Assembly (NCBI GenBank): GCA_028692875.1
Contig: JAQUWL010000010.1
Span: 1 to 64,000 of the forward strand
DNA length: 64,000 bases
DNA from: Sulfurospirillaceae bacterium
GTDB taxonomy: Bacteria; Campylobacterota; Campylobacteria; Campylobacterales; Sulfurospirillaceae
Direction: 5' to 3'
Under the pieces are notes generated by a model. It saw only the letters and a program-made list of their open reading frames with translations. It had not been told where the DNA came from and ran no database searches. Positions 7,127 through 50,083 of this stretch are shown here, piece by piece. Both the position numbers and the translations under genes were made by a program. How positions within the stretch are numbered: position 1 is the stretch's first letter; every line of letters begins with the position of its first letter.

Positions 7127-7370
7127 TGCGTAGCTCGTTTAGATGCTCTTCCACGCTTTGCGTTTTAAAACGCCCCTCTTTAATTTCTTGCATCGTCTCT
7201 TCATAAAGTCGGTCAAGTTCCAGCTCACGCAACTGCTTATAGCGCTCAATGTCGATGACGACGTACTTGTTTTTGCCCCGAACGTTGATGATGACTTCGC
7301 TCACGCTCTCAAAGAGCTTATCCAGAAGGCTCACCCCTTTGGTTTTGATGTCATTGGCTGATACGATCAT
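7116..7370 (-). CDS. Phd/YefM-type antitoxin
   Basis: 84 residues with a Phd/YefM N-terminal DNA-binding fold (VSANDIKTKG, VIINVRGKNKYVVIDIERY) and a helical, acidic C-terminal tail (YEETMQEIKEGRF) that would wrap the toxin. It is the first gene of the pair. Just upstream are repeated AATAGTA half-sites (7371-7377 and 7383-7389) and an inverted GTATTAT (7399-7405), a plausible autoregulatory operator. Confidence 0.82.
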   Translation of the reverse strand: MIVSANDIKTKGVSLLDKLFESVSEVIINVRGKNKYVVIDIERYKQLRELELDRLYEETMQEIKEGRFKTQSVEEHLNELRNAL

Positions 7371-7442
7371 AATAGTATCCTTAATAGTACGATTTAGCGT
7401 ATTATAAAGAATGCTTTTGAAAAAGAAGCTTAGAAGGAGAGC

Positions 7443-33866: not shown

Positions 33867-35516
33867 ATGTTAGGAAAGGTAAATTTTACCAAACGTTATG
33901 TGCTTGCGCTTTGCATCATTGCCTTGCTTTCGGCGTTGGCATATTACAACCTAAATCATCTTATAACAAGCCAATCAAACGATGGAAAAACCATAAATCT
34001 TAGCGTTAGGCAAGGGATGCTCTCTCAACAAATCGCACTCTACGCCATATATTATAAGACTGAAAATCTAAAAAACAATATAAAACTTATGGAAGACTCT
34101 CATCAGCATCTCATCTCTTTTCCAATGACCGAAGAGCTCAAAAAAATCTATTTTGAGGCACCTTATTTCCTTGATGACAAAGTAAGAAAATACCTTTTCC
34201 ATGCAAAAAAGTTTGAAGATAGTCGTGATGGCAGAAGTTTGACCTATGTGTTGCAAAACTCTCAACCTCTGCTTGATGAGCTTAACAAATGTGCATCTGT
34301 ATATGTTGCAAATGCCGAAGCCAATACTATTAAATTGAAGCAAGTGGAGTTGTTAATCTTTCTTTTGACACTTTTAACTCTTGTGTTTGAGGCTATTTTC
34401 ATCTTTAGACCAGCAAATATTAAAATCACAAAAGACACTAAAGAGATTGTCAAGCAAAAAGATTATTCTAATGCAGTTATTGAGTCTAGCACAAATGCTA
34501 TTATCACGCTTGATGCGGATTTGAAGATACAAACCTTCAATAAAATGGCAGAAAAGATATTTGGTTATACCAAAAAAGAGATGATAAATCTAGCACTTTT
34601 CCAAAAAATTATCCCTCAAGAGCATGAGCGAATTCAAAAAGAGGGGGTTTATAGTTTTGCAAAAAGATTGGTAGCAGAAGATGCTAGCGAGGCTCAAGAG
34701 GCGGAGGCTATCAACAAAAAAGGGCAAAAATTTCCGATTCGCATCGCTTTTGGCGTAAGCAAAGAGAGTGAAGATGTGATTATTGTCGCGAGTGTTCAAG
34801 ATATATCTAAAGATAAACTCAAAGACAAGATTATGATACAGCAGGGCAAATTTGCAGCCCTAGGTGAGATGATAGCAATCATTGCTCATCAGTGGCGACA
34901 GCCTTTGGCACAACTAAATTTTAACTGTATGTATATAAGAAAAAAGCTAACCGACCCAGAGTTGATAGAAGAGGCAAATAAAAACGAAGAGATTGTTCAA
35001 TTTATGTCCGATACTATTACAAATTTTGAAAATTTTTACAAAAAAACGGAAAATAGTATATTTAACCCGACAGTCTCAATCAATCAAGCGATTAATATCG
35101 TAGAGACATTTTTGAAAACTAACGATATTGAATTGATAAAAGATGTGGATGATGGTATTACAATTTATGGAAATGCTAATAGTTTGGCACAAGTGGTTTT
35201 GTCTATCGTTCAAAACACTATTGATATAGTTCGTTCATCCAAAATCGAAAATCCACGCATTGAAATATCCCTTCAGTCCACCAAAACATATACTATTTTG
35301 ACCATCAAAGATAACGCAGGAGGAATTAAAGTATCTCCCATTGAAGACATCTTTAAACCTTTTCATAGTGCCAAAAAAAGAGCCTCAACGGGTATTGGTC
35401 TTTACATGTCAAAACTGCTAATAGAAAATCAATTTCACGGCACAATAGTTGCAAAAAATGTGGATAATGGAGCACAGTTTACTATACAATTACCATCTTG
35501 CTGTCAAGTTTTATAA
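33867..35516 (+). CDS. Sensor histidine kinase with PilJ/NarX-type sensor and PAS domain
   Basis: A 549-residue membrane kinase. An N-terminal segment (about 11-30), a periplasmic helical domain like the PilJ/NarX type (SVRQGMLSQQIALYAIYY..), a second segment (about 165-185), a PAS domain (about 205-315, AIITLDADLKIQTFNKMAEKIFGY), a His-phosphorylation box IIAHQWRQPLAQLN and an ATPase domain ending in GGIKVSPIEDIFKPFHSAK and GIGLYMSKLLIEN. The HQWRQPL box is common in Campylobacterota. A PilJ-type sensor is known in NarX for nitrate; the signal here is unknown. Confidence 0.85.
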   Translation: MLGKVNFTKRYVLALCIIALLSALAYYNLNHLITSQSNDGKTINLSVRQGMLSQQIALYAIYYKTENLKNNIKLMEDSHQHLISFPMTEELKKIYFEAPYFLDDKVRKYLFHAKKFEDSRDGRSLTYVLQNSQPLLDELNKCASVYVANAEANTIKLKQVELLIFLLTLLTLVFEAIFIFRPANIKITKDTKEIVKQKDYSNAVIESSTNAIITLDADLKIQTFNKMAEKIFGYTKKEMINLALFQKIIPQEHERIQKEGVYSFAKRLVAEDASEAQEAEAINKKGQKFPIRIAFGVSKESEDVIIVASVQDISKDKLKDKIMIQQGKFAALGEMIAIIAHQWRQPLAQLNFNCMYIRKKLTDPELIEEANKNEEIVQFMSDTITNFENFYKKTENSIFNPTVSINQAINIVETFLKTNDIELIKDVDDGITIYGNANSLAQVVLSIVQNTIDIVRSSKIENPRIEISLQSTKTYTILTIKDNAGGIKVSPIEDIFKPFHSAKKRASTGIGLYMSKLLIENQFHGTIVAKNVDNGAQFTIQLPSCCQVL

Positions 35517-35630: not shown

Positions 35631-35669
35631 GTTTAGTGTTATTTGGTATTTTTCAAGGAGGTTATTTTG

Positions 35670-38267
35670 GTGAAGATTTTTAGCAGACTCTTTACGCCTG
35701 TTTTGGTTAGCGCAATGGCATTTAGTGTGGCAAATGGTGCCAATGGCGGTGCGCTCGAAAAGGTAATGAAAGAGAGGGGTTTAAGTGAAGCAGATGTTGT
35801 TCGTGCTGCAAAAACCTATAATCATACGGGCGGGAGAGATGATTATATAGTGTTTAGCTCAGGTGGACAGTCAGGTCAAATTCTTGTTTATGGTGTGCCA
35901 TCAATGAGGATTTTAAAGTACATTGCTGTATTTACGCCAGAGCCTTGGCAGGGATACGGTTATGATGTTGATAGCAAGAAGATTTTAGATCAAGGCAAAA
36001 TCAGAGGTAGAGATATAACATGGGGCGATACCCATCACCCGTCACTCTCTGAAACAAATGCCAAAGTAGATGGAAAGTGGTTGGTTATCAACGATAAAGC
36101 CAACCCTAGAATAGCTGTTATTGACCTGCACGATTTCGAGACAAAACAGATAGTTGTAAACCCTGTTTTCAAATCAGAACACGGCGGTTCTTTCTTTACG
36201 CAAGACTCTGAGTGGATTATCGAAGCAGCCCAATATGCGGCACCTTTTGATAACAACTATCACCCTATTGAGGAGTACAAAGAGACATATCGTGGCGGCG
36301 TTACGATGTGGAAATTTGATCCTAAAAAAGGACGTATTCAAGAAAAAGACTCGTATACTATAGAGCTTCCTCCTTACATGCAAGACTTGAGCGATGCTGG
36401 TAAAAATCTTAGCCATGGCTGGGGATTTACTAACTCGTTTAACTCGGAGATGTACACAGGCGGTATCGAAGTTGGTATGCCACCAAATGAAGCAGGTATG
36501 AGCCGAAATGATACGGACTACCTACATGTGTACAATTGGCAAAAATTGGCAGAACTTGCGAAAGACCCTAAAAATGTAAAAGTTGTCAATGGTCATAAAG
36601 TTGTGCCTATGGATGTTGCTGTTAAAAATGATGCGCTGTTTTTGATTCCAGAGCCAAAATCTCCACATGGTGTAGATGTTGACCCAACAGGCGAGTATAT
36701 CGTGGTTTGTGGAAAGCTCGATACGCACGCATCAGTTTATAGTTTCTCTAAAATTCAAAAACTCATCAAAAACAAAGAGTATGCTGGTAAAGACCCTTAT
36801 GGCATACCGATACTTGATATGAAAAAAGCATTACATGGGCAAGTAGAGTTGGGCTTGGGACCATTGCATAACCAATTTTCAAACGTAGATGGGGAAATTT
36901 ATACTTCACTATATGTTGATAGCCAAGTTGTAAAATGGAACTTTAAAACACTAAAGGTTATTGATAAGGTAAATGTTCACTATAACATCGGACATCTTTG
37001 CGGAATGGAAAGTAACACTGCTGACCCTCAAGGTGACTATATTATAGCGCTAAATAAGCTATCTATTGATAGATTTAATAGTGTTGGACCATTGCATCCA
37101 CAAAACCATCAGCTAATTGATATCCGTGGTAATAAAATGGACTTATTGGTTGATATGCCTATACCACTTGGAGAGCCTCACGATGCGGTAGCTATTCGTG
37201 CAAGCAAGCTTAATCCAGCGGTAAGATACAAAATGGGAACCAATACAAAAACGGGCGAAGAGCATATTGGTAAGACACTTGCTGGACAAGAGAGGGTTGA
37301 GAGAAAAGGAAACCATGTGACTATTTATGGAACAATGGTGCGCTCTCACATCAATCCAGAGAGAGTAACTGTAAACAAGGGCGATAAAGTTACATTTCAT
37401 CTAACAAATCTTGAACGAGCACAAGACGAGACTCACGGCTTCACGGTGGATCATTACAATGTTCACGGTTCTCTTGAGCCAGGCGAGACAGTTTCGCTAG
37501 AGTTTATTGCAGATATAGAAGGTGTTTTTCCATACTACTGTACGGAATTTTGTTCTGCACTTCACCTAGAGATGATGGGTTATTTGATGGTAAAAGACCC
37601 GAACAAAAAGTATGAGAGTGCACAAAAACTAAAAATGGCAACAATGACCAAAGAGCAACTAAAAGCCGAGTATGACAAAACAGTAGCCGTAAACAAAGCA
37701 ACTGACGATGTTATCCAAAGTGTTGTTAAGTTTCTCAAGGAGAACCATTACGAGAAGCACGAAGTGGTTAAGCATCTTGTAACAGATGCACTTGACCAAT
37801 ACGGCAAAATACCAGAGCAGAAGAAATTCTCAGATGCTGCTGTAAAAGCTGGTGATTTTGAAAAAGCTGTCTTATTTGAAAATATGATTTGGCAGTATAT
37901 GGTTAAAACCGCTGACGTTGGAATTAGAGCTAAAGATTCGCTTGTGAGACTTGTAGCAACTAAGCAGAGCGAATCCGCAACAAGAGGCGAGATAGCCTTT
38001 AATGAAGGTGGCTGTTCCGGTTGTCATGTTATCGGCAAGGTTAGTTCTGGTCCAGATTTGACTGGTGTTTTAGGTCGCCATGAAAATGGGGAAAAATGGG
38101 TAGCTGATTTTATTAAGCATCCAGAGCATAAATTCAATGACCCATACGTCAAGGCGATGATTGACTATTTCAATCTTAGAATGCCAAATCAAAACATGAA
38201 AGATGCTGAGGTAAAAGATATTGTTGAGTATCTTAAATGGATTGATTCTAACGCCAATCTATTCTAG
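35670..38267 (+). CDS. nosZ: Nitrous oxide reductase NosZ, clade II with C-terminal cytochrome c
   Basis: The terminal enzyme of N2O respiration (N2O to N2) in the periplasm. It has a Sec-type signal peptide without twin arginine (clade II), a seven-bladed propeller with the CuZ-ligand histidines (for instance DTHHPS and HGVDV), a cupredoxin domain with the CuA motif CTEFCSALHLEMMGY (Cys624, Cys628), and a fused haem-c domain with CSGCH at residues 782-786. The start is the GTG at 35670, nine bases after AAGGAGG; earlier in-frame starts lack a ribosome site. 865 residues, normal for Campylobacterota. No TACATGTA occurs in it. Confidence 0.95.
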   Translation: MKIFSRLFTPVLVSAMAFSVANGANGGALEKVMKERGLSEADVVRAAKTYNHTGGRDDYIVFSSGGQSGQILVYGVPSMRILKYIAVFTPEPWQGYGYDVDSKKILDQGKIRGRDITWGDTHHPSLSETNAKVDGKWLVINDKANPRIAVIDLHDFETKQIVVNPVFKSEHGGSFFTQDSEWIIEAAQYAAPFDNNYHPIEEYKETYRGGVTMWKFDPKKGRIQEKDSYTIELPPYMQDLSDAGKNLSHGWGFTNSFNSEMYTGGIEVGMPPNEAGMSRNDTDYLHVYNWQKLAELAKDPKNVKVVNGHKVVPMDVAVKNDALFLIPEPKSPHGVDVDPTGEYIVVCGKLDTHASVYSFSKIQKLIKNKEYAGKDPYGIPILDMKKALHGQVELGLGPLHNQFSNVDGEIYTSLYVDSQVVKWNFKTLKVIDKVNVHYNIGHLCGMESNTADPQGDYIIALNKLSIDRFNSVGPLHPQNHQLIDIRGNKMDLLVDMPIPLGEPHDAVAIRASKLNPAVRYKMGTNTKTGEEHIGKTLAGQERVERKGNHVTIYGTMVRSHINPERVTVNKGDKVTFHLTNLERAQDETHGFTVDHYNVHGSLEPGETVSLEFIADIEGVFPYYCTEFCSALHLEMMGYLMVKDPNKKYESAQKLKMATMTKEQLKAEYDKTVAVNKATDDVIQSVVKFLKENHYEKHEVVKHLVTDALDQYGKIPEQKKFSDAAVKAGDFEKAVLFENMIWQYMVKTADVGIRAKDSLVRLVATKQSESATRGEIAFNEGGCSGCHVIGKVSSGPDLTGVLGRHENGEKWVADFIKHPEHKFNDPYVKAMIDYFNLRMPNQNMKDAEVKDIVEYLKWIDSNANLF

Positions 38268-38376: not shown

Positions 38377-39171
38377 ATGCATCCAAGTTTAATTAAATCT
38401 CGTATTTTTACATTTTTGGCACTACTGATTTTGACAGTTGCCTTTACGTTTCCAATGATAGGATTTCACGGCACATTAAATTCCATATATGGCGGGGAAA
38501 AAAATAAAGTCTCCACGTTTTCTACTAAAGTATGGAATTTTTACAATCAAGGACGCTATAAAAGCACCAATACACCCAAAGAGGCACACAATAATCTCCA
38601 AAAAATGATAGAGACATCTTCGGAAATTGGTGTTGCATCGATTCCTTTGTGGGCTGTTTCTCTCGAGGCACCAAACTATCCTAAAGAGGCATTTCCGGAG
38701 GGAATTCCTGTATTTTTTCACTTTGACGGGTTTAGTGGAGAGGTGCATGAGATGAACACAATAAATCACTATATCGGAATGGATCCTATGTGGAGGGGCG
38801 GTATAATAGAGCGTGAGATAGGTATTTATGCACTTTTGTTTTTAACGCTTGTGATGGTCTATTTTATGGCATATAGCAATAAAATATGGAGTTATTTGAT
38901 GTTTATTCCTGTTGCATTGCCGTTCCTTTTTATCGCAGATTATTCGTATTGGCTCTACTGGTTTGGGCACAATTTGCATGATTGGGGTGCCTTTAAAATC
39001 AAGCCTTTTATGCCAACAGTGTTTGGAGATGGAAAAGTAGCTCAGTTTACAACACACTCATATCCAACGATAGGTTTTTATCTTTTGATTGCCATAGCGT
39101 TTTTGTCGCTACTTGCAGTGCTTGCAAAAAATAAGGCTATAAAAGAGGGTGGCGTAAGTATAGAAAAATGA
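38377..39171 (+). CDS. nosB: NosB, membrane protein of the clade II nos system
   Basis: A 264-residue membrane protein with one N-terminal segment, a periplasmic stretch (about 30-145) and four C-terminal segments (about 146-255, including IGIYALLFLTLVMVYFM). This is the protein found next to clade II nosZ throughout Campylobacterota. Its role in electron transfer or NosZ maturation is not settled. It begins after AAAAGGTGG and overlaps nosD by 4 bases. Confidence 0.85.
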   Translation: MHPSLIKSRIFTFLALLILTVAFTFPMIGFHGTLNSIYGGEKNKVSTFSTKVWNFYNQGRYKSTNTPKEAHNNLQKMIETSSEIGVASIPLWAVSLEAPNYPKEAFPEGIPVFFHFDGFSGEVHEMNTINHYIGMDPMWRGGIIEREIGIYALLFLTLVMVYFMAYSNKIWSYLMFIPVALPFLFIADYSYWLYWFGHNLHDWGAFKIKPFMPTVFGDGKVAQFTTHSYPTIGFYLLIAIAFLSLLAVLAKNKAIKEGGVSIEK

Positions 39172-40475
39172 AATATATCTTTTTTCTTAGTTCTTTAATT
39201 TTTATATTTGCCTTTGCGGATGAGCATTTTAAATATGACACTTTGGCGCAAGATAAGATTGTTGGAAAAGATGTTCCCATTAAAGAGACTCAAAGAAGTG
39301 TTATTCAAGATGCGATTGATAATGCTAAAGCAGGATCTATCATCAAGCTGACTGCTGGTGTTTACGAGGGAAACGTGGTTATCAACAAACCCCTTAGTAT
39401 CATCGGCGTTGAAGATGGTGTTGTGCTTGATGGCTTGGGCGCAGGTAGTGTTGTGACGATAAAAAGCTCTTATGTGACATTGAAAAATCTTACTATTCGC
39501 AATAGTGGAGAGAGACAAGATTTACTTGATGCAGGGATAAATATTAACGGAGATTCAGCTATAGGCATACTCTCTCAGTGTGAGATTAGCTATTGCAAAG
39601 TTGTGGATAGTTTGCTTGGCATCAACATGGAGCTGACAAATAACTCTATCATTGAAAATAACTACATATCGTCCAAAGATTATGAGTTGGGACTAAGAGG
39701 CGATGGACTTAGGTTGTGGTACGCAAACGATAATATTATTAAAAATAACCACTTGTATCGTTCTCGCGATATGGTGGTATGGTATTCTCACGGTAACACG
39801 ATAGAGAAAAATCTTGGAGAGTATGGACGCTATTCTCTTCATTTTATGTATGCTGGCAAAAACTATGTCCGAAATAATGAGTACAGATACAATTCAGTAG
39901 GTATCTTTTTTATGTACTCCAACGACAGTATAGCAACTGGAAATATCGTTAAAAGCTCAGTCGGAGCAACGGGCATGGGAATAGGGCTAAAAGATGTTTC
40001 CAACTTTACGATAGAAGACAATACTGTTGTGTATAACGCACAGGGGATGTATATTGATCGCTCATCTTTTGAGCCAGAAACCAACAATTGGATACGAAAT
40101 AACAAGATTCTTTATAATGCAGAGGCGTTACATTTTCACTCTTTGTGTGAAAATAATATTTTAGAAAGTAACATCATTAAAGGAAATATTGATGATGTTG
40201 TAAATGACTCTAGAAGTTCTGAAAACTTCAAAAACAAATTCGAAAAAAACTATTGGGACAATTATGAGGGCTTTGACAAAGATAAGGATGGATACGGAGA
40301 TAATATATATCGTGTTTATCAGTATGCCGATAAACTTTGGATGTACAATCCCTCAGTAAAGTTTTTTTACGGCTCGCCTGTAATGTCTTTATTGAATTTT
40401 TTGTCTAAGTTGGCTCCTTTTTCAGAGCCTCTATTTTTATTGGAAGATAAAAAACCAAAGTTTCACAACTATTAG
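39168..40475 (+). CDS. nosD: NosD, periplasmic copper-centre maturation protein
   Basis: A 435-residue exported protein with signal peptide and a right-handed beta-helix of the carbohydrate-binding/NosD kind: repeated N-I-I-x-N-N rungs (IIENNYI, IIKNNHL, TIEKNLG, SIATGNIV). NosD works with the NosF/NosY ABC transporter to deliver sulfur/copper for the CuZ centre. A 4-base overlap with nosB shows coupling. Confidence 0.93.
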   Translation: MKYIFFLSSLIFIFAFADEHFKYDTLAQDKIVGKDVPIKETQRSVIQDAIDNAKAGSIIKLTAGVYEGNVVINKPLSIIGVEDGVVLDGLGAGSVVTIKSSYVTLKNLTIRNSGERQDLLDAGININGDSAIGILSQCEISYCKVVDSLLGINMELTNNSIIENNYISSKDYELGLRGDGLRLWYANDNIIKNNHLYRSRDMVVWYSHGNTIEKNLGEYGRYSLHFMYAGKNYVRNNEYRYNSVGIFFMYSNDSIATGNIVKSSVGATGMGIGLKDVSNFTIEDNTVVYNAQGMYIDRSSFEPETNNWIRNNKILYNAEALHFHSLCENNILESNIIKGNIDDVVNDSRSSENFKNKFEKNYWDNYEGFDKDKDGYGDNIYRVYQYADKLWMYNPSVKFFYGSPVMSLLNFLSKLAPFSEPLFLLEDKKPKFHNY

Positions 40476-40486
40476 CGGGAGAGAAG

Positions 40487-41224
40487 ATGAGTCTACATGT
40501 AAAGCAAGACAGAAGAGAGTTTATTCAGTACTCTACTTTGGGAATTTTAGGGCTAGTGTTAGGTGCAGGAGTTGTTGGGGCACCGTATTTAAGAGCCGAT
40601 GAAAATAGACTAAGACCTCCTGGTGCTGTTGATGAAGATAGGTTTTTGGCACTTTGTATCAAATGCGGACAGTGTTTGCAAGTATGCCCCTATCACTCCA
40701 TAAAATTGGCGGATTTTAAAAAGGGCTATGGAGCTGGAACGCCTTATGTAGATGCTAGAGAAAGGGGTTGTTATCTGTGTGGTGCTTTGCCATGTGTTTT
40801 GGCTTGTCCGACAGGTGCACTTGACCATCACGCTGAAAAACCAGAAGATGTCAAAATGGGTATAGCAGTTCTTTCTATGCCAACGATGTGTTTGGCAGTT
40901 ACTCGAAAAAAGGTAACAAAGCAAGATATAAGAAGGATTTATGAACATCCTCATACAAGAGAATTAGAAGAAGATGTGTTGAAAAAACTTGAAACTTTTG
41001 TTGATAAGCCTTGTACGATTTGTGCGGATATGTGTCCATTGCCAAATCCTTTAAGTGCAATAGAGATGATTGAAACAAAAACGGGAATCATAAGACCACA
41101 AGTTAAAAGCGGATGTGTTGGTTGTGGAGTTTGCGAGGAGTTGTGCCCAGCGGAGACTCCAGCTATTGTTGTGAGACCCAGACTCTCATATGAGGATTTC
41201 TATATAAACGGTAAAGAAAAATGA
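40487..41224 (+). CDS. nosG: NosG, periplasmic 4Fe-4S ferredoxin
   Basis: A 245-residue NapG-like ferredoxin. The N-terminus has a twin-arginine signal (DRREFIQYSTLG), followed by four cluster motifs: CIKCGQCLQVCP, CYLCGALPCVLACP, CTICADMCP and CVGCGVCEELCP. With NosH it is thought to form a quinol-to-NosZ electron path. The region just after the start codon contains a TACATGTA palindrome (read as LHV), the only copy in the first half of the nos cluster. Confidence 0.92.
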   Translation: MSLHVKQDRREFIQYSTLGILGLVLGAGVVGAPYLRADENRLRPPGAVDEDRFLALCIKCGQCLQVCPYHSIKLADFKKGYGAGTPYVDARERGCYLCGALPCVLACPTGALDHHAEKPEDVKMGIAVLSMPTMCLAVTRKKVTKQDIRRIYEHPHTRELEEDVLKKLETFVDKPCTICADMCPLPNPLSAIEMIETKTGIIRPQVKSGCVGCGVCEELCPAETPAIVVRPRLSYEDFYINGKEK

Positions 41225-41802
41225 AAAAATTAGCTACTTTTTTGTGTATTGCCATGTTGATTCAAGGTTGCTCAGAAAAAGATGATAAAAAAGAGATAAA
41301 TGCCACTTTGCCTTCTCAAAACAAAGCAGGTAAGATTGAAGTGGTGCAAAATGATGACTTTAAAGTTGAAAAAGTTAAAGTTAAAGAAAAAGACGCCAAC
41401 GAAAGCAAGACATTTTACTATGACTACAACCAAAAAGATGTAGGAAATGCTCAGCAAAAAGAGGAGAAAACCTACACCTCAGTAGATGCAAATATGCGAG
41501 TTAGAAGTCCATATGAACATGTAGAGATAAGTATGATAGTTAGCAAGTTAAGCAAAAATTTTATACTAAAATGTTCAGCTTGTCACGATGACTACGCAAA
41601 TGGTATCGTTGGTCCATCTTTGCTTGATAAAGATAGCGATTTTATCTATGGAACTATTGCTAAGTATAGGCAAGGCGGAAAAGTAAATGTCTTAATGAAA
41701 GAGCTGGTAATGCAGATGAAAGATGAAGAGATTAGAGTATTGGCAGATGAGATTTATACCTTTAATAAACAAATCAAAGAGTTAAGAGAGAAGAGAAAAT
41801 GA
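41221..41802 (+). CDS. nosC1: NosC1, lipoprotein cytochrome c
   Basis: A 193-residue mono-haem cytochrome. It has a lipoprotein signal (LIQGC, Cys17), a charged linker (about 20-110) and a C-terminal haem-c domain with CSACH near residue 119 and a distal Met in NVLMKEL. It is one of two small cytochromes that should feed electrons to NosZ. Overlaps its neighbours by 4 bases on both sides. Confidence 0.88.
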   Translation: MKKLATFLCIAMLIQGCSEKDDKKEINATLPSQNKAGKIEVVQNDDFKVEKVKVKEKDANESKTFYYDYNQKDVGNAQQKEEKTYTSVDANMRVRSPYEHVEISMIVSKLSKNFILKCSACHDDYANGIVGPSLLDKDSDFIYGTIAKYRQGGKVNVLMKELVMQMKDEEIRVLADEIYTFNKQIKELREKRK

Positions 41803-42287
41803 AGCATATTATTGTAGTTTTATCAACAATTTTGGTTGTTGCGTTGGCAGTTTATACCGCAAAACAAGGGACGGCTTTTCAAGGCGGAGAGGATGCAAGG
41901 ATTATTGAGGATATCGCAAAAAACAAAAGCGGTGACATTTCTTCAAAAAGCATGCAGCCACAGCAAAAAAGCGATAGAGATATCGAGGCTGAAAAACTAA
42001 AAGCACTAAGAGATAAGGCTGGAAACGTATCCTCTTTTAAAGTTAGCGATAACTATAAAAAGAAGTGCGCTTCGTGTCATGGTGTCTCTGGCGAAGGATT
42101 GGTTGGACTTCCGCTTTTTGGTCAAAGTGCCGAAGATGTTTACAAAAAACTTGTTGAGTTCAAAAGTGGCAGAAGGGAAAACGCCATCATGAAAGGTGCT
42201 CTTATGAATGTGCCAGAGTCTGAATTTAAAGAACTTGCTGATGAGATAGGTGAGTTTAAAGCAAGAGCCGAAGCGATGGCAAAATAA
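41799..42287 (+). CDS. nosC2: NosC2, membrane-anchored cytochrome c
   Basis: A 162-residue mono-haem cytochrome with an N-terminal anchor (about 4-18) and the haem motif CASCH (about residues 89-93), with a Met ligand in ENAIMKGALMN. It pairs with NosC1, as in other clade II clusters of Campylobacterota. Confidence 0.88.
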   Translation: MKHIIVVLSTILVVALAVYTAKQGTAFQGGEDARIIEDIAKNKSGDISSKSMQPQQKSDRDIEAEKLKALRDKAGNVSSFKVSDNYKKKCASCHGVSGEGLVGLPLFGQSAEDVYKKLVEFKSGRRENAIMKGALMNVPESEFKELADEIGEFKARAEAMAK

Positions 42288-42297
42288 AGGATTTTAC

Positions 42298-43203
42298 GTG
42301 GATAAATATAAAACCAGAAACACAATTTCCAAGACATCATTTTGGTCAACTTTTTGGGATACCACAAAAGATGGCAAAAAAAAGCTAAGCATTCGTGCAA
42401 AACGGTGGATGGTTGTTGTGGCTGTACACCTGCTTTTCTTTTTGTCTTTCGCCGTTGATGTTCAGGTTTTAGAGGGAACTTTGATGGGTTCAAGGTTTTT
42501 GGGTTTTCACTTGATTGATGTTTTTGCAACGCTTGAGGTTTATTTGGCGACCTATCATATGCCTATAAATATGGTTATCGGAACAGTTAGTATCGTTTTG
42601 GTTTACTTGATAATCGGTGGAAGAACGTATTGTTCTTGGATTTGTCCTTACGGACTTTTTAGCGAAATAGGCGAAAAGTTTCATGATATCCTTGTCTCCA
42701 AAAAAATCATCAAAGAGCGTGAATTTGACCATCGTGTAAAATATATTTTTTGGGCAATATTTTTGGCGTTGGCGTTTACGAGTGGTTATCTGGTTTTTGA
42801 AGTCATCAATGTTGTTGGTATATTGAGTCGTTTTATCGCTTATGGTTGGAGCGTGGCTTTGGCGTGGGTGTTAGCTGTGTTTTTAGTGGAGGTTTTCTTC
42901 GCCAGAAGAGCATGGTGTAAGTATCTTTGCCCTATCGGAGCGACATATGGAATTTTGGGATGGGTTAGTGCAACACGTATAGAGTGGAATGACAACTGCG
43001 ACCATTGTATGGTATGCCACGATGTCTGCTTTGAAAATCACGTTTTGGAGATTACAAAGAAAAAGTATGATGAACAAAGAAAAGAAAAAGGCATAAAAAA
43101 AGAGGTTATCCTAAATGGCGATTGTACTTTATGTGGTAGATGCATAGATGTTTGCCATGCAGATGCACTCTCTTATACATTTCGTCTGAAGTCTTTAGTA
43201 TGA
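42298..43203 (+). CDS. nosH: NosH, NapH-like membrane ferredoxin
   Basis: A 301-residue quinol-oxidising membrane protein with four or five segments, the NapH signatures CSWICPYGLF and CKYLCPIGATYG, and two C-terminal 4Fe-4S motifs (CDHCMVCHDVC and CTLCGRCIDVC). It passes electrons to NosG. The start is the GTG at 42298, ten bases after nosC2 and 7 after AAAGG; the frame extends upstream into nosC2. Confidence 0.9.
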   Translation: MDKYKTRNTISKTSFWSTFWDTTKDGKKKLSIRAKRWMVVVAVHLLFFLSFAVDVQVLEGTLMGSRFLGFHLIDVFATLEVYLATYHMPINMVIGTVSIVLVYLIIGGRTYCSWICPYGLFSEIGEKFHDILVSKKIIKEREFDHRVKYIFWAIFLALAFTSGYLVFEVINVVGILSRFIAYGWSVALAWVLAVFLVEVFFARRAWCKYLCPIGATYGILGWVSATRIEWNDNCDHCMVCHDVCFENHVLEITKKKYDEQRKEKGIKKEVILNGDCTLCGRCIDVCHADALSYTFRLKSLV

Positions 43204-43838
43204 TAGAAGTTGTTAATTTAACTAAAAAATTTGGCAATAGCCTTTCGTTGGACAGTGTCTCTTTGCGATTTGAAAAAGGCGATTATGTTGCATTGATGGG
43301 ACCAAATGGAGCAGGAAAAACAACATTGATTCGTCTACTTTTGGGATATTATCATCCAACACAAGGAGAGGTTTTTATCGATGGACTTGACCCAATCTCA
43401 CAGCGTGTAAAAGTTCTAGAGAAGATTAGTTTTGTTCCACAGCTTCCGCCACCAATAAAATTAAATTTGGAAGAGCTTATAGGCTATGTTTGCGACAGTT
43501 CAGGCGTTAAAAAGAGTGAGATTGAGTATTTTGCCAAAGAGATGGAGTTTGATTTGGAGCTAAATCTAAAAAAGTCATTTTTCAAGCTTAGCGGCGGAAT
43601 GAAGCAGAAGATGCTTATAGCGATAAGTCTTGCAAAAAAGAGCGAGATTGTTATCTATGATGAGCCGACAGCAAACCTTGACCCAAAGGCAAGGGATAAC
43701 TTTTATCGACTTTTAAAGCAGAATGAAAATGGCAAAATAGCTCTTTTTGTAACACACAGACTTGACGAAATAAAACAGATCGTCAATCGTGAAATCTATA
43801 TGGATTTGGGAAAAATTATCAGTGATGCGAAGATTTAG
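43200..43838 (+). CDS. nosF: NosF, ABC ATPase for NosZ maturation
   Basis: A 212-residue ATPase with Walker A GPNGAGKTT, signature FKLSGGMKQKM, Walker B IVIYDEPTANLD and the switch His in FVTHRLDE. It powers NosY in the NosDFY complex. The ATG at 43200 overlaps the nosH stop (ATGA); the frame is open further upstream within nosH. In this cluster nosY is about 4 kb downstream. Confidence 0.9.
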   Translation: MIEVVNLTKKFGNSLSLDSVSLRFEKGDYVALMGPNGAGKTTLIRLLLGYYHPTQGEVFIDGLDPISQRVKVLEKISFVPQLPPPIKLNLEELIGYVCDSSGVKKSEIEYFAKEMEFDLELNLKKSFFKLSGGMKQKMLIAISLAKKSEIVIYDEPTANLDPKARDNFYRLLKQNENGKIALFVTHRLDEIKQIVNREIYMDLGKIISDAKI

Positions 43839-44262
43839 CCAAATTTTCTTTCTGCTGTTTTTATTTTTTGGTTGCGACAATAAGTCAAATATAGACCCAA
43901 AAAAGATGCATTGGGATAGAGATATGTGCATAAGATGCAAAATGGTTTTAAGCGATAGAAAATTTTCAGCCCAAGCCATCAATCCCAAAACAAGACAAAA
44001 ATATACCTTTGATGATATTGGTTGTGTTATCTTATGGTTTAAAGAAGATAGGATTGAGTGGGCAGATGAGGCGATTATCTGGGTCAATGATGCTATTAGT
44101 GGCGAATGGATAGATGCAAGAACTGCTTTTTACGATACTGAAAATATAACCCCTATGGCTTATGGATTTGGTGCTCATAAAACAAAAGAGCAGATAAAGC
44201 CAAATCAAGAAATTATAGACTTTTTGGAAGTTCAAAAACGTGTAATAAAGATAGGAAAATGA
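43825..44262 (+). CDS. nosL: NosL, copper-binding lipoprotein (first copy)
   Basis: A 145-residue lipoprotein (lipobox FFGC) with the NosL Cu(I)-binding segment MCIRCKM and the core FDDIGCVILWF, IDARTAFY and PMAYGFGA. NosL delivers copper to NosD/NosZ. Start ATG at 43825 lies within the end of nosF, giving a 14-base overlap. Confidence 0.9.
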   Translation: MRRFSQIFFLLFLFFGCDNKSNIDPKKMHWDRDMCIRCKMVLSDRKFSAQAINPKTRQKYTFDDIGCVILWFKEDRIEWADEAIIWVNDAISGEWIDARTAFYDTENITPMAYGFGAHKTKEQIKPNQEIIDFLEVQKRVIKIGK

Positions 44263-44573
44263 TAAAAAAAAGCATATTTTTTTTCTTTTTTATTGTAACT
44301 CTTTCTGTTTTTATCGCAATTCAGTATCTTTTTTTTCAAAAAAATAACGCTCTAAGTGCCGAAATGCTTTCAAAAAAAGAGAGGTTTGTTGGAGTTGTTG
44401 GTTTGCCAGATATGGCGATTGTTAGTGAAGCACACTATGTAAGGCATCGAAGTTTGAGCGATACATTCTCTTTTTTTGCAGATGCTCCCTCTTTGCTGGA
44501 GTATTTTCCCTCCACTTTTGTTTATAATTACTCAACTATAGCCCAAAAAAATCCCTCAAGGATACAAAAGTGA
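44259..44573 (+). CDS. Small membrane protein of the nos operon, function unknown
   Basis: A 104-residue protein with one strong N-terminal segment (about 5-25) and a short exported domain (MLSKKERFVGVVGLPDMAIVSEAHYVRHRSLSDTF). I do not recognise the family. It overlaps nosL and the following permease by 4 bases each, so it is part of the operon. One Met and two His near the centre could contact copper (guess). Confidence 0.65.
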   Translation: MIKKSIFFFFFIVTLSVFIAIQYLFFQKNNALSAEMLSKKERFVGVVGLPDMAIVSEAHYVRHRSLSDTFSFFADAPSLLEYFPSTFVYNYSTIAQKNPSRIQK

Positions 44574-45757
44574 AAAGCAAGATCAATATATTTTTGATGG
44601 AGTATGCTATCAATTCGCTTTTGCGAAGAGGTGGTAAAAATATTTTTATTTTATTGATATTTACCCTTTTGGTTTTCTTGCTCTCAAGTGCGCTTTTTAT
44701 ATCGGAGTCAATAAAGCTTGAGTTAAATAGTGTTGTCAAGCAACTTCCGCAGATAACACTACAACGCTTTCAAGCTGGAAGACAAGTTGATGTGCCTACC
44801 TCTAGGGTCGATAAACTGATTTTAATAGAGGGTATTCAAAGTGTGGTGCCTAGAGTTTGGGGGTACTACTATTTTAAAGTTGCTGGAGTTAATTTTTCTG
44901 TTGTTGGTGTTGATGCTTTTGAGGAGCAGTACACCAAGCAACTACAAGATATCATCGATAAAACAGATATTTCGGTTTTTAAACAAGACAACTCTATGCT
45001 TGTTGGCTCTGGAGTCAGGAGGGTTTTGGATGAAAACTATTATAAAGATTTTTTCAACTTTGTAACACATGATGGCAAGTGGAAAAGGCTCAATATCGCA
45101 GGAGTTTTTAACTCCGATGTTTCGCTTGAGGCAAACGATATGATTTTGATTTCCAAAAAAAGTGCTTATGAGATATTTGGTATGGATAAAACTATGGCAA
45201 CAGATATAGTGGTTAAGGTCTCAAATCCTACTGAAATACCGATGATTGTATCAAAAATAAATGAACTTTATCCAGATATGAGAACCATCACTCAAGATGA
45301 TATTAGAGTAAGTTATCAAAATATTTTTGACTATAAAAGTGGGTTTTTTCTTGCTCTTTTTGTTGTTTGTGCTTTTACCTTTTTTATCATCATCTATGAT
45401 AAAGCTAGCGGTTTGAGCTCAGAGGAGAAAAAGGAGATAGGCATCTTAAAAGCTGTTGGCTGGAGAATGGATGATATTATCAAGGAGAAGTTTTATGAAA
45501 GTTTTATCCTCTCTTTTTGTGCTTTTTTACTAGGACTTGTGTTGGCTTTGTTTTTTGTTTATGGTCTGCAAGCACCACTTCTTAGGGATGTTTTTATTGG
45601 ATATTCTCAACTCAAGCCACCTTTTAATTTACCTTTTAATGTCGATTTTGCACATATGATTTTACTTTTTTTGCTTAGCGTCCCAGTATATATTGCCTCT
45701 ACCATCATCCCATCGTGGAAGGCTTCAACTCTTGATGCTGATGAGGTGATGAGATGA
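44570..45757 (+). CDS. FtsX/MacB-type ABC transporter permease in the nos operon
   Basis: A 395-residue permease with the MacB layout: one N-terminal segment (about 20-42), a large periplasmic domain (about 45-255), and three C-terminal segments, with GILKAVGWRMDDIIKEKFYES as the ATPase-contact loop. Such pairs drive periplasmic lipoprotein or substrate movement by mechanotransmission. The ATPase follows with a 4-base overlap. It is a different transporter type from NosY and not part of the canonical nos set. Confidence 0.82.
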   Translation: MKSKINIFLMEYAINSLLRRGGKNIFILLIFTLLVFLLSSALFISESIKLELNSVVKQLPQITLQRFQAGRQVDVPTSRVDKLILIEGIQSVVPRVWGYYYFKVAGVNFSVVGVDAFEEQYTKQLQDIIDKTDISVFKQDNSMLVGSGVRRVLDENYYKDFFNFVTHDGKWKRLNIAGVFNSDVSLEANDMILISKKSAYEIFGMDKTMATDIVVKVSNPTEIPMIVSKINELYPDMRTITQDDIRVSYQNIFDYKSGFFLALFVVCAFTFFIIIYDKASGLSSEEKKEIGILKAVGWRMDDIIKEKFYESFILSFCAFLLGLVLALFFVYGLQAPLLRDVFIGYSQLKPPFNLPFNVDFAHMILLFLLSVPVYIASTIIPSWKASTLDADEVMR

Positions 45758-46422
45758 TAAAACTAGAGAAAGTTACCAAAGTTTTCGCGCAAGGTCAAAA
45801 CGAAGTTGTCGCTTTAAAAGATATATCTTTACATGTAAGAGGCGGAGAGTTTGTTGTTTTAAAAGGAGCGAGCGGTAGTGGCAAAAGTACCATTTTATCG
45901 CTTATAGCAGGACTTAGCAAGCCTACATGTGGAGAGATTTTGGTCGATGGCAAGTCTATTTCAAAACTATTTGATAACTTTAGTGCAATGTTTCGGCGTG
46001 AAAATATTGGATTTATTTTTCAAAAATACAACCTTATACCTACTTTGAGTGTTAAAGAGAATATTATTGTTCCACTTATCCCTTCAAATCCAGACCCAAA
46101 AGAGATACAAATAAGAGCTTGTGAGGTTATGGAGAAGTTTTCTATTGCCTCAAAGGCGGATATGCTGGTCAAAAATCTTTCTGGAGGAGAACAGCAACGA
46201 GTTGCCATAGCAAGAGCACTTATAAACAATCCTCGCATTATTATTGCAGATGAGCCTACGGCAAATTTGGACTCAAAACTCTCTTTGGAGCTGATTGAGA
46301 TTCTTAAAAAACTAAAGGCAGAAAACAGAACCATTTTGGTAGCCACGCATGATCCACTTTTTTTTGAGCTTGATTGTGTTGATTGTGTTATTGAGGTAAA
46401 AAATGGTGAGATACTAAAATGA
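45754..46422 (+). CDS. LolD/MacB-type ABC ATPase in the nos operon
   Basis: A 222-residue ATPase with Walker A GASGSGKST, signature NLSGGEQQRVAIARAL, Walker B IIIADEPTANLD and switch ATHDPLF. This is the normal partner of an FtsX/MacB permease, encoded just upstream. A TACATGTA palindrome lies near its start (45830). Confidence 0.88.
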   Translation: MIKLEKVTKVFAQGQNEVVALKDISLHVRGGEFVVLKGASGSGKSTILSLIAGLSKPTCGEILVDGKSISKLFDNFSAMFRRENIGFIFQKYNLIPTLSVKENIIVPLIPSNPDPKEIQIRACEVMEKFSIASKADMLVKNLSGGEQQRVAIARALINNPRIIIADEPTANLDSKLSLELIEILKKLKAENRTILVATHDPLFFELDCVDCVIEVKNGEILK

Positions 46423-47381
46423 CACTTACGCCAGAAATCATAGCTCTTTTGATGCTTGATGCGCTTTTTTTGTTTTTCTCTTTCATCGCATTTGTGATAA
46501 GTGTGCGAATCTATCTCAAATGGGATTCATCCTCTTTTTCGCCCTTGCAGTACGGACTTGAAAAGCAAAGCTATCTTGTTGGTGTCGTTATCAAATATAT
46601 CTTTTTTCTCAAGCTTCCGTTATTTCTTTTTTATGTCTATACATGTGACAAACTTTCAAACATCATAACTGGGGCAATGTGTGCTTCTGGTGTTGTAAAT
46701 TCAGTCGATTTTGGACTATATTTGATGGTTTTTAAGATACTAAATCTTTATCTTTTTGGTTTTTGGCTTTTGCTTCATCAAGTGGATTTAAAAGATGAAA
46801 AGCAAAGTTTTACAAAGCTTAAATTTCTCCTTTTTGCCATCTTTTTTATCTTTCTTTTGAGTGAAATCATACTTGAGGTGTCATTTTTTGCCTCTTTAAA
46901 TATAAGCAAAATTGTTAGTTGTTGCGGTACGCTTTTTTCGGCAACGAGCAGTTCATATATCTCTTTATTGTTTAAGATAGACAGTGCTGTTTTGGTAGGA
47001 CTTTTTTATGGCTGTTTTGTCTTGATGGTCGTGGCATATTTTCTCAAAAACAGTCCGATATTTATAGTCTCCAACGGACTTTTTTTGTTTTTTAGTATCG
47101 CTTCACTTATAATCTTTTTTAGTACATATGTTTATGAGCTTCCTACGCACAACTGTCCGTTTTGTCTTTTGCAAAAAGAGTATTACGGAGTTGGGTATGT
47201 GATGTATATATCTCTTTTTATGGGAACATTTTATGGATTTTGCGGAGGAGTTTTGCAAAGAGTTTCTCAAATAGTGATGCCTCACTACGCCCTTATATCC
47301 ATCGTTTCCAATACATTTTATGTCGCAATCGTCTCTTTGTACCCGATTGTTTATCGACTACATAATGGAGTTTGGCTTTGA
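46419..47381 (+). CDS. Polytopic membrane protein with a CPFC motif in the nos operon
   Basis: A 320-residue protein with about eight membrane segments. Near residue 246 there is HNCPFCLLQKEYYGVGY, with a CxxC pair directly after a predicted segment, as in disulfide-exchanging or metal-handling membrane proteins. Other cysteines occur at MCASG and VSCCG. The family is unknown to me. Its 4-base overlaps with the ATPase before and the second nosL after place it firmly in the operon. Confidence 0.7.
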   Translation: MTLTPEIIALLMLDALFLFFSFIAFVISVRIYLKWDSSSFSPLQYGLEKQSYLVGVVIKYIFFLKLPLFLFYVYTCDKLSNIITGAMCASGVVNSVDFGLYLMVFKILNLYLFGFWLLLHQVDLKDEKQSFTKLKFLLFAIFFIFLLSEIILEVSFFASLNISKIVSCCGTLFSATSSSYISLLFKIDSAVLVGLFYGCFVLMVVAYFLKNSPIFIVSNGLFLFFSIASLIIFFSTYVYELPTHNCPFCLLQKEYYGVGYVMYISLFMGTFYGFCGGVLQRVSQIVMPHYALISIVSNTFYVAIVSLYPIVYRLHNGVWL

Positions 47382-47872
47382 AAAATATCATTTTGATTTT
47401 GTTTCCAGTTTTTGCTTTAGGCGGACTTTTTTTCTATCTAAATACAGTGTATAAAAGTCCAACAGATATCATCAATAAAGAAAAAATCCCACTAGAATAT
47501 AAAGACAATACTGTTCAATGCCCGCAGTGCAATATGTTTTTGGTGGGCAAAAAATATACTGCCCAAGTCATTACGTCTGATAATAAAACGCACTTTTTTG
47601 ATGATGTTGGTTGTGTTGTACTTTGGTTTAGAGATACGAAAAAAGATGAGCAAAAAAGCACTATCTGGGTTTTTACACTTGATACAAATCGTTGGATTGA
47701 TGCAAGAAAATCTTTCTATTCGCTAAGCGATGATACGCCTATGAAGTACGGATTTGGGGCATATGAGCAGAAAAAAGAGGGTTTTATCGTTTTTGAGGAG
47801 ATGAGGCTGAAAATGCTTAGGGGAGAAAATATGAGTGACCCAAAAATACGTAAACAATTATTAGGAAAATAA
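47378..47872 (+). CDS. NosL-like copper protein (second copy)
   Basis: A 164-residue protein with an N-terminal membrane anchor and no lipobox Cys. The NosL core is clear: CPQCNMFLVGKKYTAQV, FFDDVGCVVLWFR, WIDARKSFYS and MKYGFGAYE. The TTG at 47378 overlaps the previous stop (TTGA) and lies 8 bases after ATGGAG; a TTG two codons earlier is less well spaced. It is about as similar to the first NosL as paralogs in one operon would be. Confidence 0.82.
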   Translation: MKNIILILFPVFALGGLFFYLNTVYKSPTDIINKEKIPLEYKDNTVQCPQCNMFLVGKKYTAQVITSDNKTHFFDDVGCVVLWFRDTKKDEQKSTIWVFTLDTNRWIDARKSFYSLSDDTPMKYGFGAYEQKKEGFIVFEEMRLKMLRGENMSDPKIRKQLLGK

Positions 47873-47873
47873 G

Positions 47874-48701
47874 ATGAAAAATTTGATGTTGATAGCATAT
47901 CTAGACCTCAAAGAGTCCATTCGGGCAAGATGGTTTTTGGTCTATTCGTTGGTTTTTGGAGGGCTTATCGCACTCTTTTTTATAGCAGGAGTGACCGAGT
48001 CGCAAGTTATGGGATTTAGCGGACTTAGTAGGCTTCTTTTGATGTATATACAAGTGACGATTGTCATCTTGCCGATTTTTATTTTGATTACGACTGTGAG
48101 GTCGATTTCTGGGGATAGAGATAACCATATTTTGGAGTATATGCTCTCTTTTCCGATATCGTTGAGTGACTATTATTGGGGCAAAATCATAGGCAGGTTT
48201 GGAACAGTTTTTGTGCCAGTCTTTTTTGCGATGGTTTTGGCATCTTTGGTGGGTTTTGCAAAGGGGGCAAGTATTCCTTGGAGCATATTTTTTCTCTACA
48301 CTGGGCTGCTTTTTGCTTTAACCTCATCATTTTTGGGTATCGCTTTTTTTATCTCTACGATTGTAAAGTCCTCCGAGGTGGCATTGGGATTGTCATTTTT
48401 TGTGTGGATATTTTTGTTGGCATTTATTGATATTGCGCTGATTAGCTTGATGATGCAAAATCGCTTTAGCGAAGAGTTGATTATAGCTATATCGTTGATA
48501 AATCCTATGGAAGTTTTTAGAGTTTCTGCCATCAGCTTGTTTGACCCAGAGTTGACCGTTATGGGACCTGTGGCATTTGTTATACTCGACAATGTCAGCC
48601 GTTTTGTTTTTATAGCTTTTTCTATTTTGTACCCTTTTGTTTTAGGGCTTGTATTTGCTTTTTTTGGCTTTAAGTTGTTTAAAAAGATAGATTTAATTTA
48701 G
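47874..48701 (+). CDS. nosY: NosY, ABC-2-type permease
   Basis: A 275-residue permease with six segments. The SGDRDNHILEYMLSFPISLSDYYWGK region is the typical NosY coupling stretch. It works with NosF and NosD. Spacing of one base after the second nosL. Separation from nosF by five genes is unusual. Confidence 0.9.
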   Translation: MKNLMLIAYLDLKESIRARWFLVYSLVFGGLIALFFIAGVTESQVMGFSGLSRLLLMYIQVTIVILPIFILITTVRSISGDRDNHILEYMLSFPISLSDYYWGKIIGRFGTVFVPVFFAMVLASLVGFAKGASIPWSIFFLYTGLLFALTSSFLGIAFFISTIVKSSEVALGLSFFVWIFLLAFIDIALISLMMQNRFSEELIIAISLINPMEVFRVSAISLFDPELTVMGPVAFVILDNVSRFVFIAFSILYPFVLGLVFAFFGFKLFKKIDLI

Positions 48702-48710
48702 GAGTTATGG

Positions 48711-49178
48711 ATGAAAAAATTTTTACTTACGATTGTTTTAGGCTCATTGCTTTTGGCTGGAGTCATTGAGGCGGATAAAAATGCTACATGTTTGATAAGA
48801 AAAATAAAAGTATATGAAGCACCACGTTGGGTTACGACTATTCAAGTTAGAAGTGGTGAGACAATATATTTTTGTAGTCCGAAGTCTATGTTTGAATTTT
48901 TCTTTCATCCAGCAAAATGGCCACAGTACAACGTAAAGCAAGACGGCGATATGAGAATATCTGTAAATACTCATGATACTCTAAAAAAAATTGACGCAAG
49001 AAAAGCCTATTTTGTTTATGGAGCTAAAGAGATTAGCCCTGCTGGAGATGATTTGCCAGCTTTTGAGACAAAAGAGTCGGCACAAAAATTTGCCGATAAA
49101 AATGGAGGAAAAAAGGTTTTGTTTTTTGACGAGGTTCCTTTTGCTCTTATCAATCTTCTAAACGGAAGGATAAAGTAG
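48711..49178 (+). CDS. NosL-related exported protein (third copy)
   Basis: A 155-residue protein with a Sec signal peptide. It keeps NosL features (IYFCSPKSMFEFFFHPAKW, KIDARKAYFVYGA, FETKESAQKFADKNGGK, VLFFDEVP), but the usual CxxC-x-M metal site is replaced by a single Cys (ATCLIRK), so copper binding must differ. It ends the nos operon and starts after GGAG. Confidence 0.8.
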   Translation: MKKFLLTIVLGSLLLAGVIEADKNATCLIRKIKVYEAPRWVTTIQVRSGETIYFCSPKSMFEFFFHPAKWPQYNVKQDGDMRISVNTHDTLKKIDARKAYFVYGAKEISPAGDDLPAFETKESAQKFADKNGGKKVLFFDEVPFALINLLNGRIK

Positions 49179-49264
49179 TATTTTTGAGCTACATGTAAGG
49201 CTTAAAGATTTTAAAAACCTTGATGGGCTATGATGAGGGTTGCAAAGCTCAAAAAGGAGCCGAT

Positions 49265-50083
49265 ATGAAAATAGCAATGACAGGCGCAAGTGGTTTTGTT
49301 GCAAACGCTTTAAGAAAGGTTTTCCCAGATGTTGTCTCTATCGAAAGAGGCGATGGTGTAGAGGATATACTTAAGAAACTCGATGGGGTATACGCCGTTT
49401 TCAATCTCGCTGGAGCACCTATTGCTAAGCGATGGGACGAGGAGTATAAAAAAGTTTTATACAAAAGTCGTATAGAGACAACAAAAAAAGTTGTTCAAGC
49501 CATAAATAAAAGCAATATTGAGCATTTTATATCTACTTCTGCAGTCGGTGTTTATCCAAATGATATCGCATGTGACGAAACAACAAACCGATTAAGTGAT
49601 GATTTTTTGGCACATATTGTCAAAGATTGGGAAAAAGAGGCTCTTGCTTGCAATAAAAAAACTACCATACTTAGGTTTGGTGTTGTTTTTGGAAAAGATG
49701 GTGGGGCGTTGTCTGCGATGTTGCCAGCTTTTAAATTTGGATTTGGTGGAACAATAGGCGATGGAAGCATGGTGGTTAGCTGGATAGATATCAATGATCT
49801 TTGCAAAATTTATCAATTTGTTTTGCAAAATAAACTCTCAGGTATTTTCAATGCCACTTCTCCAAAGCCAGTTACCAATCTTGTTTTGACTAAAACTCTT
49901 GGAAAGCTTTTAAATAGACCAACACTCTTTCCTTTGCCTAAATTTTTGGTAAAACTTATCTTCTCGCAAGGTGCTAGTGTTTTGCTAGATAGTAAAGAGG
50001 TTTATCCAAAGGCTCTTTTGGAAAATGGTTTTAAGTTTGAATATCCAAATATTGAAATGAGTCTGAGAAATATCCTTTTCTAG
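49265..50083 (+). CDS. TIGR01777-family NAD-dependent epimerase (YfcH-like)
   Basis: A 272-residue extended SDR: TGASGFVA (residues 6-13), NLAGAPIAKRWDEEYK, STSAVGVYP, LRFGVVFGKDGGAL, VSWIDINDL. These are the marks of the YfcH/TIGR01777 group. The ATG at 49265 follows AAGGAG; the frame extends to 49220 without a ribosome site. Substrate unknown. Confidence 0.85.
   Translation: MKIAMTGASGFVANALRKVFPDVVSIERGDGVEDILKKLDGVYAVFNLAGAPIAKRWDEEYKKVLYKSRIETTKKVVQAINKSNIEHFISTSAVGVYPNDIACDETTNRLSDDFLAHIVKDWEKEALACNKKTTILRFGVVFGKDGGALSAMLPAFKFGFGGTIGDGSMVVSWIDINDLCKIYQFVLQNKLSGIFNATSPKPVTNLVLTKTLGKLLNRPTLFPLPKFLVKLIFSQGASVLLDSKEVYPKALLENGFKFEYPNIEMSLRNILF

Follow-up and report, generated by a model that had tools for sequence, protein, structure and literature searches.

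Among the closest described counterparts of the genes considered here is the NosDFY-NosL system, in which an ATP-binding cassette (ABC) pair and a Cu(I) chaperone are encoded in one operon and serve a periplasmic copper enzyme, the nitrous oxide (N2O) reductase NosZ. As a chaperone for the CuZ site, NosL binds Cu(I) with attomolar affinity, and CuZ depends on it when copper is limiting (PMC6530538). In the nos cluster of Sulfurospirillum cavolei, a five-gene insert was drawn in 2016 without interpretation (Ross et al. 2016, PMC4794192); it was annotated as an ABC permease, an ABC ATPase, and three hypothetical proteins, and neither a function nor a link to mcc operons or stand-alone copies was given. 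In this study, we analyzed 64,000 nucleotides (the window) of contig JAQUWL010000010.1 from a Sulfurospirillaceae bacterium (GCA_028692875.1), where the same genes occupy the same site, between nosL and nosY. On sequence grounds, we think it reasonably likely that these genes (44259 to 47872) form a portable ABC/NosL module that matures periplasmic copper enzymes. We found no other account of the module in the literature; its mcc context may be partly known already.

The window contains a clade II nos cluster, defined by a Sec-dependent NosZ together with nosB-D-G-C1-C2-H-F-Y-L (Table 1). An earlier note on this DNA had named these genes and the insert, and all of them are in the list of open reading frames (ORFs), in the order given and on the plus strand. 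The note counted six genes in the insert; the block is real but comprises five, which encode a small protein, an FtsX-type permease, a LolD-type ATPase, an eight-helix polytopic protein, and a NosL (NosL2). The description of a further ABC machine that has a membrane cysteine pair and a NosL of its own was borne out, as were a permease of the MacB/FtsX type, on which Pfam and Foldseek agree, a polytopic protein with a CPFC motif, and, on inspection of the sequence, a third NosL without the CxxCxM copper site. The operon holds both NosDFY and a type VII ABC system, and the two differ: NosY is an ABC-2 protein with the NosD beta-helix as its partner, whereas the module permease is of type VII and is accompanied by an unrelated eight-helix protein with conserved Cys, His, and Met residues. 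The idea that the inserted permease is a part of NosDFY was rejected, since it is FtsX-type and the operon has its own separate nosD, nosF, and nosY.

Distribution with NosL, MccA, and nosZ

We surveyed 298 Campylobacterota genomes, using the eight-helix protein as the marker for the module; linkage to nosZ or mccA was scored as a distance of at most 22 kb, and a locus with neither a nos nor an mcc marker in the stretch inspected was labeled stand-alone. The marker was present in 107 genomes, at 126 loci. A NosL gene was found in 130 genomes, including all 107 that encode the eight-helix protein; the other 168 genomes, which have no NosL, all lack this protein.

The most regular enzyme partner was the haem-copper sulfite reductase MccA, a type of enzyme recorded among the cuproenzymes (PMC7558416). 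All 48 genomes with a CX15CH-type MccA carry the module, 47 of them within the linkage distance of mccA; in the remaining one (G182), mccA and an mcc-type copy lie near the ends of different contigs. These MccA proteins are 62 to 100% identical to the Wolinella enzyme, and the CX15CH motif is present in that enzyme and in all seven others examined. In Wolinella succinogenes, the order is mccA (octahaem, C-15-CH), three genes that we take, from their position and size and the known operon, to be mccC, mccD, and ccsA1, two further genes, and then a homologous module, with genes for a two-domain NosL (two CxxCxM motifs), a small protein, the permease, the ATPase, the polytopic protein, and a NosL2-like protein, followed by a gene for a thioredoxin-like protein. 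The permease, ATPase, and polytopic protein are 33%, 50%, and 35% identical, respectively, to those of the window; the differences lie in the octahaem-copper cytochrome client and the shorter small protein (62 residues). Because the module was present in every CX15CH-type MccA operon found and never in a NosL-less genome, copper is a better candidate than sulfur for its cargo.

The earlier note had proposed a route for copper or sulfur to NosZ and had regarded a block found mostly without nosZ as the observation that would speak against it. Of these two cargoes, copper is the more probable; the restriction to NosZ was too narrow. Only 17 of the 126 loci lie near nosZ, and 109 lie away from it; 39 of the 107 genomes lack nosZ, and 68 have it. 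On this distribution, a nos-specific accessory role was rejected. The random expectation for loci near nosZ is, by our estimate, roughly 1 to 2, and the genome-level association with nosZ has an odds ratio of 14, not corrected for phylogeny. As the module lies beside MccA and stands alone in relatives, it probably serves periplasmic copper enzymes in general and is not special to N2O.

The sulfur part of the proposal, in which the module would export sulfur in some form to supply the sulfide of CuZ, would fit the presence of the module in many nos operons, and NosDFY was itself proposed as a sulfide supplier (PMC6530538). However, the most regular partner is MccA, and copies of the module are kept where nosZ has been lost. 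The MccA copper site is not known to contain inorganic sulfide; sulfide supply for CuZ is therefore disfavored, and we regard it as very improbable. We give equally little credence to a general envelope stress or drug efflux pump of the MacB type that lies near these operons by chance: approximately half of the loci are stand-alone and the MacB fold is common, but such a pump would not be expected to show the strict dependence on NosL (107/107), the link to MccA (48/48), or the repeated joining to nos operons, and no MacA/TolC-type partner was noticed in the neighborhoods inspected, although no profile search was aimed at either.

Several observations weigh against a general role in copper enzyme maturation. 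The module is missing from 21 of the 89 genomes with nosZ, and the Wolinella nos cluster lacks it; therefore, it is not essential to every nos system. About half of the loci adjoin neither nosZ nor mccA. The count of 48 of 48 overstates independence, since these genomes fall into about seven genera with many close relatives and so represent far fewer than 48 independent events. Among 37 genomes with a divergent MccA (at most 53% identical; CX15CH in none of the 12 examined), 32 lack the module and 31 lack NosL. Cys399 and Cys495, the copper ligands of MccA, are kept in divergent MccA-like octahaem proteins (L178 to L186 and L194 to L196), with CX15CH missing in those examined; the idea that a loss of these cysteines explains the missing module was thus wrong. 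Either the divergent enzymes obtain copper in another way or their cofactor differs, and this is the main unexplained point. Finally, the invariant cysteines of the eight-helix protein could equally serve thiol redox chemistry; sequence does not separate copper transfer from thiol reduction.

The type VII ABC pair and the eight-helix protein

The permease has an FtsX-type fold, a large periplasmic domain after the first helix, and a LolD/FtsE-type ATPase partner, as is characteristic of type VII ABC systems. Its AlphaFold2 (AF2) model (mean predicted local distance difference test score [pLDDT], 81.9) matched LolE (E value, 2.6e-14), MacB (4.5e-13), and the haem exporter HrtB (9.7e-9) in Foldseek searches. 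The permease thus shares its fold with the mechanotransmission ABC proteins; the systems of LolE, MacB, and HrtB act mechanically on the periplasmic side or within the membrane, and this supports the maturation reading. Although the module shares permease fold, domain order, and a LolD/FtsE-like ATPase with LolCDE, MacB, FtsEX, and HrtBA, it differs from them in scoring below the LolC/E and LolD cut-offs and in having an extra membrane protein and a NosL partner. LolCDE proper was rejected, since the equivalog models were not reached (57.5 of 362 bits for lolCE and 207 of 308 bits for LolD), as was MacAB drug efflux, since ATPase and permease are separate genes and of the 966 bits of the MacB equivalog, the permease reached only 12 and the ATPase 192.

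These likenesses also bear on the possibility that the ABC pair is a dedicated LolCDE paralogue that sorts NosL lipoproteins by releasing them from the inner membrane. LolE/LolC are the nearest in fold to the permease, and LolD is the nearest to the ATPase; NosL has been predicted to be a Lol substrate (PMC6530538), and NosL1 has a lipobox. However, when same-strand NosL2 copies behind the polytopic gene were scored with a simple pattern across nos, mcc, and stand-alone loci, only 9 of 47 had a lipobox; most two-domain NosL proteins are not lipoproteins either, and the eight-helix protein would be left unexplained. We therefore consider a Lol paralogue improbable.

Conserved Cys and His residues are absent from the permease, and it has a single conserved Met (M143), so that the eight-helix protein and NosL are likely the metal or thiol sites of the module. 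In an alignment of 54 diverse eight-helix proteins, M87, C88, C168, C169, H244, C246, and C249 were invariant (54/54), with CPFC at residues 246 to 249, and no other Cys, His, or Met was conserved at 60% or more. These residues sit in loops 2, 4, and 6; the mean Lys-plus-Arg count is 11.4 for the other loops versus 3.6 for these, so that the positive-inside rule places the conserved residues in the periplasm. The AF2 model from this alignment (pLDDT, 89.2; predicted template modeling score, 0.86) found no match in the PDB (best E value, 1.4) or among the BFVD viral models (0.4), and sequence searches found no Pfam family and no PDB relative. It is possible, although less likely than not, that the protein represents a new fold and a new family of membrane proteins that handles Cu(I), is driven by the type VII ABC pair, and loads NosL, in a general energized copper insertion route common to N2O reductase and sulfite reductase.

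The same residues could belong to an oxidoreductase of the DsbB, VKOR, or CcdA kind that removes disulfides or maintains in reduced form the cysteines by which NosL, NosZ, and MccA bind copper; the ABC pair would then transport a reductant or the NosL client. The protein resembles DsbB/VKOR in its periplasmic cysteine pairs, the invariant CPFC (a C-P-x-C motif) and the paired CC; a weak VKOR match (E value, 0.015) was obtained for 1 of the 54 members, a DsbD_2 family gene lies beside 12 loci, and a thioredoxin-like gene follows the Wolinella mcc module. However, the window protein matched none of these families, Foldseek gave no DsbB, VKOR, or CcdA match, the protein has eight helices, M87 and H244, which redox chemistry alone would not require, are no less invariant than the cysteines, and most loci lack DsbD_2. 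On balance, a thiol redox role appears unlikely.

For the proposed copper maturation module, comprising the small protein, the ABC pair, the eight-helix protein, and NosL, to which many genomes add a two-domain NosL, we envision the following route, which in its details is possible but doubtful. The eight-helix protein would offer a site for Cu(I) or a thiol site on the periplasmic side; the LolD-type ATPase would hydrolyze ATP, and force would pass mechanically through the periplasmic domain of the permease. This energy would move Cu(I) onto or off the NosL chaperones, which would pass it to NosDFY/NosZ or MccA. The clients would be NosZ in the window, MccA in mcc operons, and other enzymes for stand-alone copies. 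Sequence establishes the genes, their conservation, their pattern of partners, and the folds as predicted, whereas copper as the cargo, the direction of transfer, and the energetic coupling are all inferred. The way in which copper arrives at CuZ and at the MccA site is understood in part, and when copper is scarce it sets a limit to N2O removal. A portable assembly machine, if that is what these enzymes share, would join two respiratory enzymes of the nitrogen and sulfur cycles, account for the "hypothetical" genes that recur in nos clusters of Campylobacterota, and provide a testable energized step in periplasmic copper transfer via an uncharacterized membrane protein family.

Operon structure and the NosL proteins

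The earlier note had described the nos genes as all overlapping, which is slightly too strong. Overlaps of 4 bases join nosH/nosF, nosL1/small protein gene, small protein gene/permease, permease/ATPase, and ATPase/polytopic gene, and longer ones join nosF/nosL1 (14 bases) and polytopic gene/nosL2 (10 bases); small gaps remain at nosZ-nosB (109 bases), nosD-nosG (11 bases), and nosC2-nosH (about 10 bases if nosH starts at GTG 42298), and the spacers are 1 base for nosL2-nosY and 9 bases for nosY-nosL3. Since the junctions from nosL1 to the polytopic gene overlap by 4 bases and those of the remaining tail involve at most 10 bases, translational coupling from nosL1 through the operon tail is very likely, and the overlaps make a single transcription unit likely. 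A promoter scan was uninformative (48 found versus 46.7 expected), and a terminator scan was weak (13 versus 9.1). The gene run does not consist of chance ORFs, as its arrangement is conserved in relatives; nosB-D-G-C1-C2-H-F orthologues are collinear in loci L037, L044, L078, and L085, and nosY orthologues in related nos operons are 80 to 84% identical. The histidine kinase-like gene just upstream of nosZ may regulate it.

Table 1. Genes of the nos operon and its flanks in the window
Feature	Coordinates	Strand	Evidence
PAS/histidine kinase-like gene	33867-35516	+	
nosZ, Sec-dependent clade II N2O reductase	35643-38267	+	NCBIfam TIGR04246, 873 bits (cut-off, 625)
nosB-D-G-C1-C2-H-F, standard clade II accessory genes	38377-43838	+	ORFs, order
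NosL1, lipobox FFGC and CxxCxM (CIRCKM)	43825-44262	+	PF05573, 19.0 bits
Small protein, one N-terminal membrane helix	44259-44573	+	Conserved LPD(L/M)A...RHRS motif
Type VII ABC permease (FtsX/LolE/MacB fold)	44570-45757	+	Pfam FtsX, 55 bits
LolD/FtsE-type ABC ATPase	45754-46422	+	ABC_tran, 129.5 bits; LolD, 207 bits (under equivalog cut-off, 307.75)
Eight-helix polytopic protein, invariant residues including PTHxCPFC	46419-47381	+	54-sequence alignment
NosL2, membrane-anchored NosL with CxxCxM (CPQCNM)	47372-47872	+	PF05573
nosY, ABC-2 membrane protein of NosDFY	47874-48701	+	ABC2_membrane_2, 67.6 bits
NosL3, NosL fold without CxxCxM	48711-49178	+	PF05573, 66 bits (highest of the three NosL)
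Epimerase gene	49220-50083		

NosL1 and NosL2 can be aligned with each other and both have CxxCxM, though in the protein scan they score just below the Pfam PF05573 cut-off of 24 bits; NosL2 is borderline, with 23.5 bits there and 24.1 bits with its neighbors in the genome search. Where the module is linked to nos, CxxCxM is kept in 17 of 17 NosL1 homologues that precede it, and the motif occurs in none of 37 nos-linked NosL3 homologues; M60 of the NosL3 SPKSM motif is conserved. Module-type NosL2 proteins occur in all three classes of locus (nos, mcc, and stand-alone); those of mcc-type modules lack CxxCxM in 9 of 11 copies. The genome of the window also encodes a solitary two-domain NosL, away from the nos operon (contig C16, 13649 to 14752, L175; L177, 9635 to 10768), with CxxCxM twice and 53% identity to a Sulfurimonas module protein; in other genomes, such a protein stands at the head of the module. 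Pfam and NCBIfam searches with the small protein gave no family above the cut-off; its H63 is conserved in 93% of 74 sequences.

Positions, relatives, and neighbors of the module

The module occupies at least five positions in nos operons: between nosL1 and nosY; beyond nosL3, either on the same strand or, in Sulfurimonas, in convergent orientation; ahead of nosY-nosL3-nosZ (L094 and L154); and, as an mcc-like module, between nosF and nosL1 (L056). In the protein tree, the mcc copies form one clade (97*, the star marking good support), whose neighbor is the L056 copy in the nos operon of G218, and the nos and stand-alone labels switch at least 17 times on starred branches. The nos copy (L037) and the stand-alone copy (L038) of genome G248 encode identical eight-helix proteins, which suggests a recent duplication or gene conversion.

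In nosZ-less Sulfurospirillum, the block is retained at a locus flanked by the epimerase gene that, in the window, comes after nosL3, and G146, which has no nosZ, keeps the genes from the small protein through permease, ATPase, polytopic protein, nosL2, and nosY to nosL3. The ratio of nonsynonymous to synonymous substitution rates (dN/dS) of the three core genes was 0.03 to 0.21 in eight such copies, six of them from nosZ-less genomes, with many dS values near saturation; the copies are therefore under purifying selection, also in Sulfurospirillum that has lost nosZ.

A scan of the genome collection gave 516 relatives of the eight-helix protein; the best 80, analyzed for context and in the tree, belong to Campylobacterota or to unclassified bins that cluster with Campylobacterota, and the module is likely confined to this phylum. 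No plasmid-borne copies were found; plasmid NosL genes in Paenibacillus and Thermomicrobium lie beside ordinary NosDFY-type genes, where the module is absent.

Other neighbors vary. Copper genes beside some copies, like the sharing of a NosL-dependent module by two unrelated copper enzymes, speak for copper enzyme maturation. In L036 (4931 to 6319), the second Wolinella module is downstream of genes for CcoG, a cytochrome c oxidase accessory protein (559 bits), and a SLAC1 family channel. In a Sulfurimonas locus (L055), the module is followed, after a Crp-type regulator, by a CopA-type multicopper oxidase (802 bits) and a multihaem cytochrome (5921 to 7855). The adjoining DsbD_2 family gene encodes a membrane protein with a GHCxGMCGG motif and directly follows the module NosL in L040, L056, L074, L203, L206, L209, and L212 to L214. 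In family f9 (L049 and L068 to L070), TonB-ExbB-ExbD and two-component genes precede the module, perhaps linking it to outer membrane uptake.

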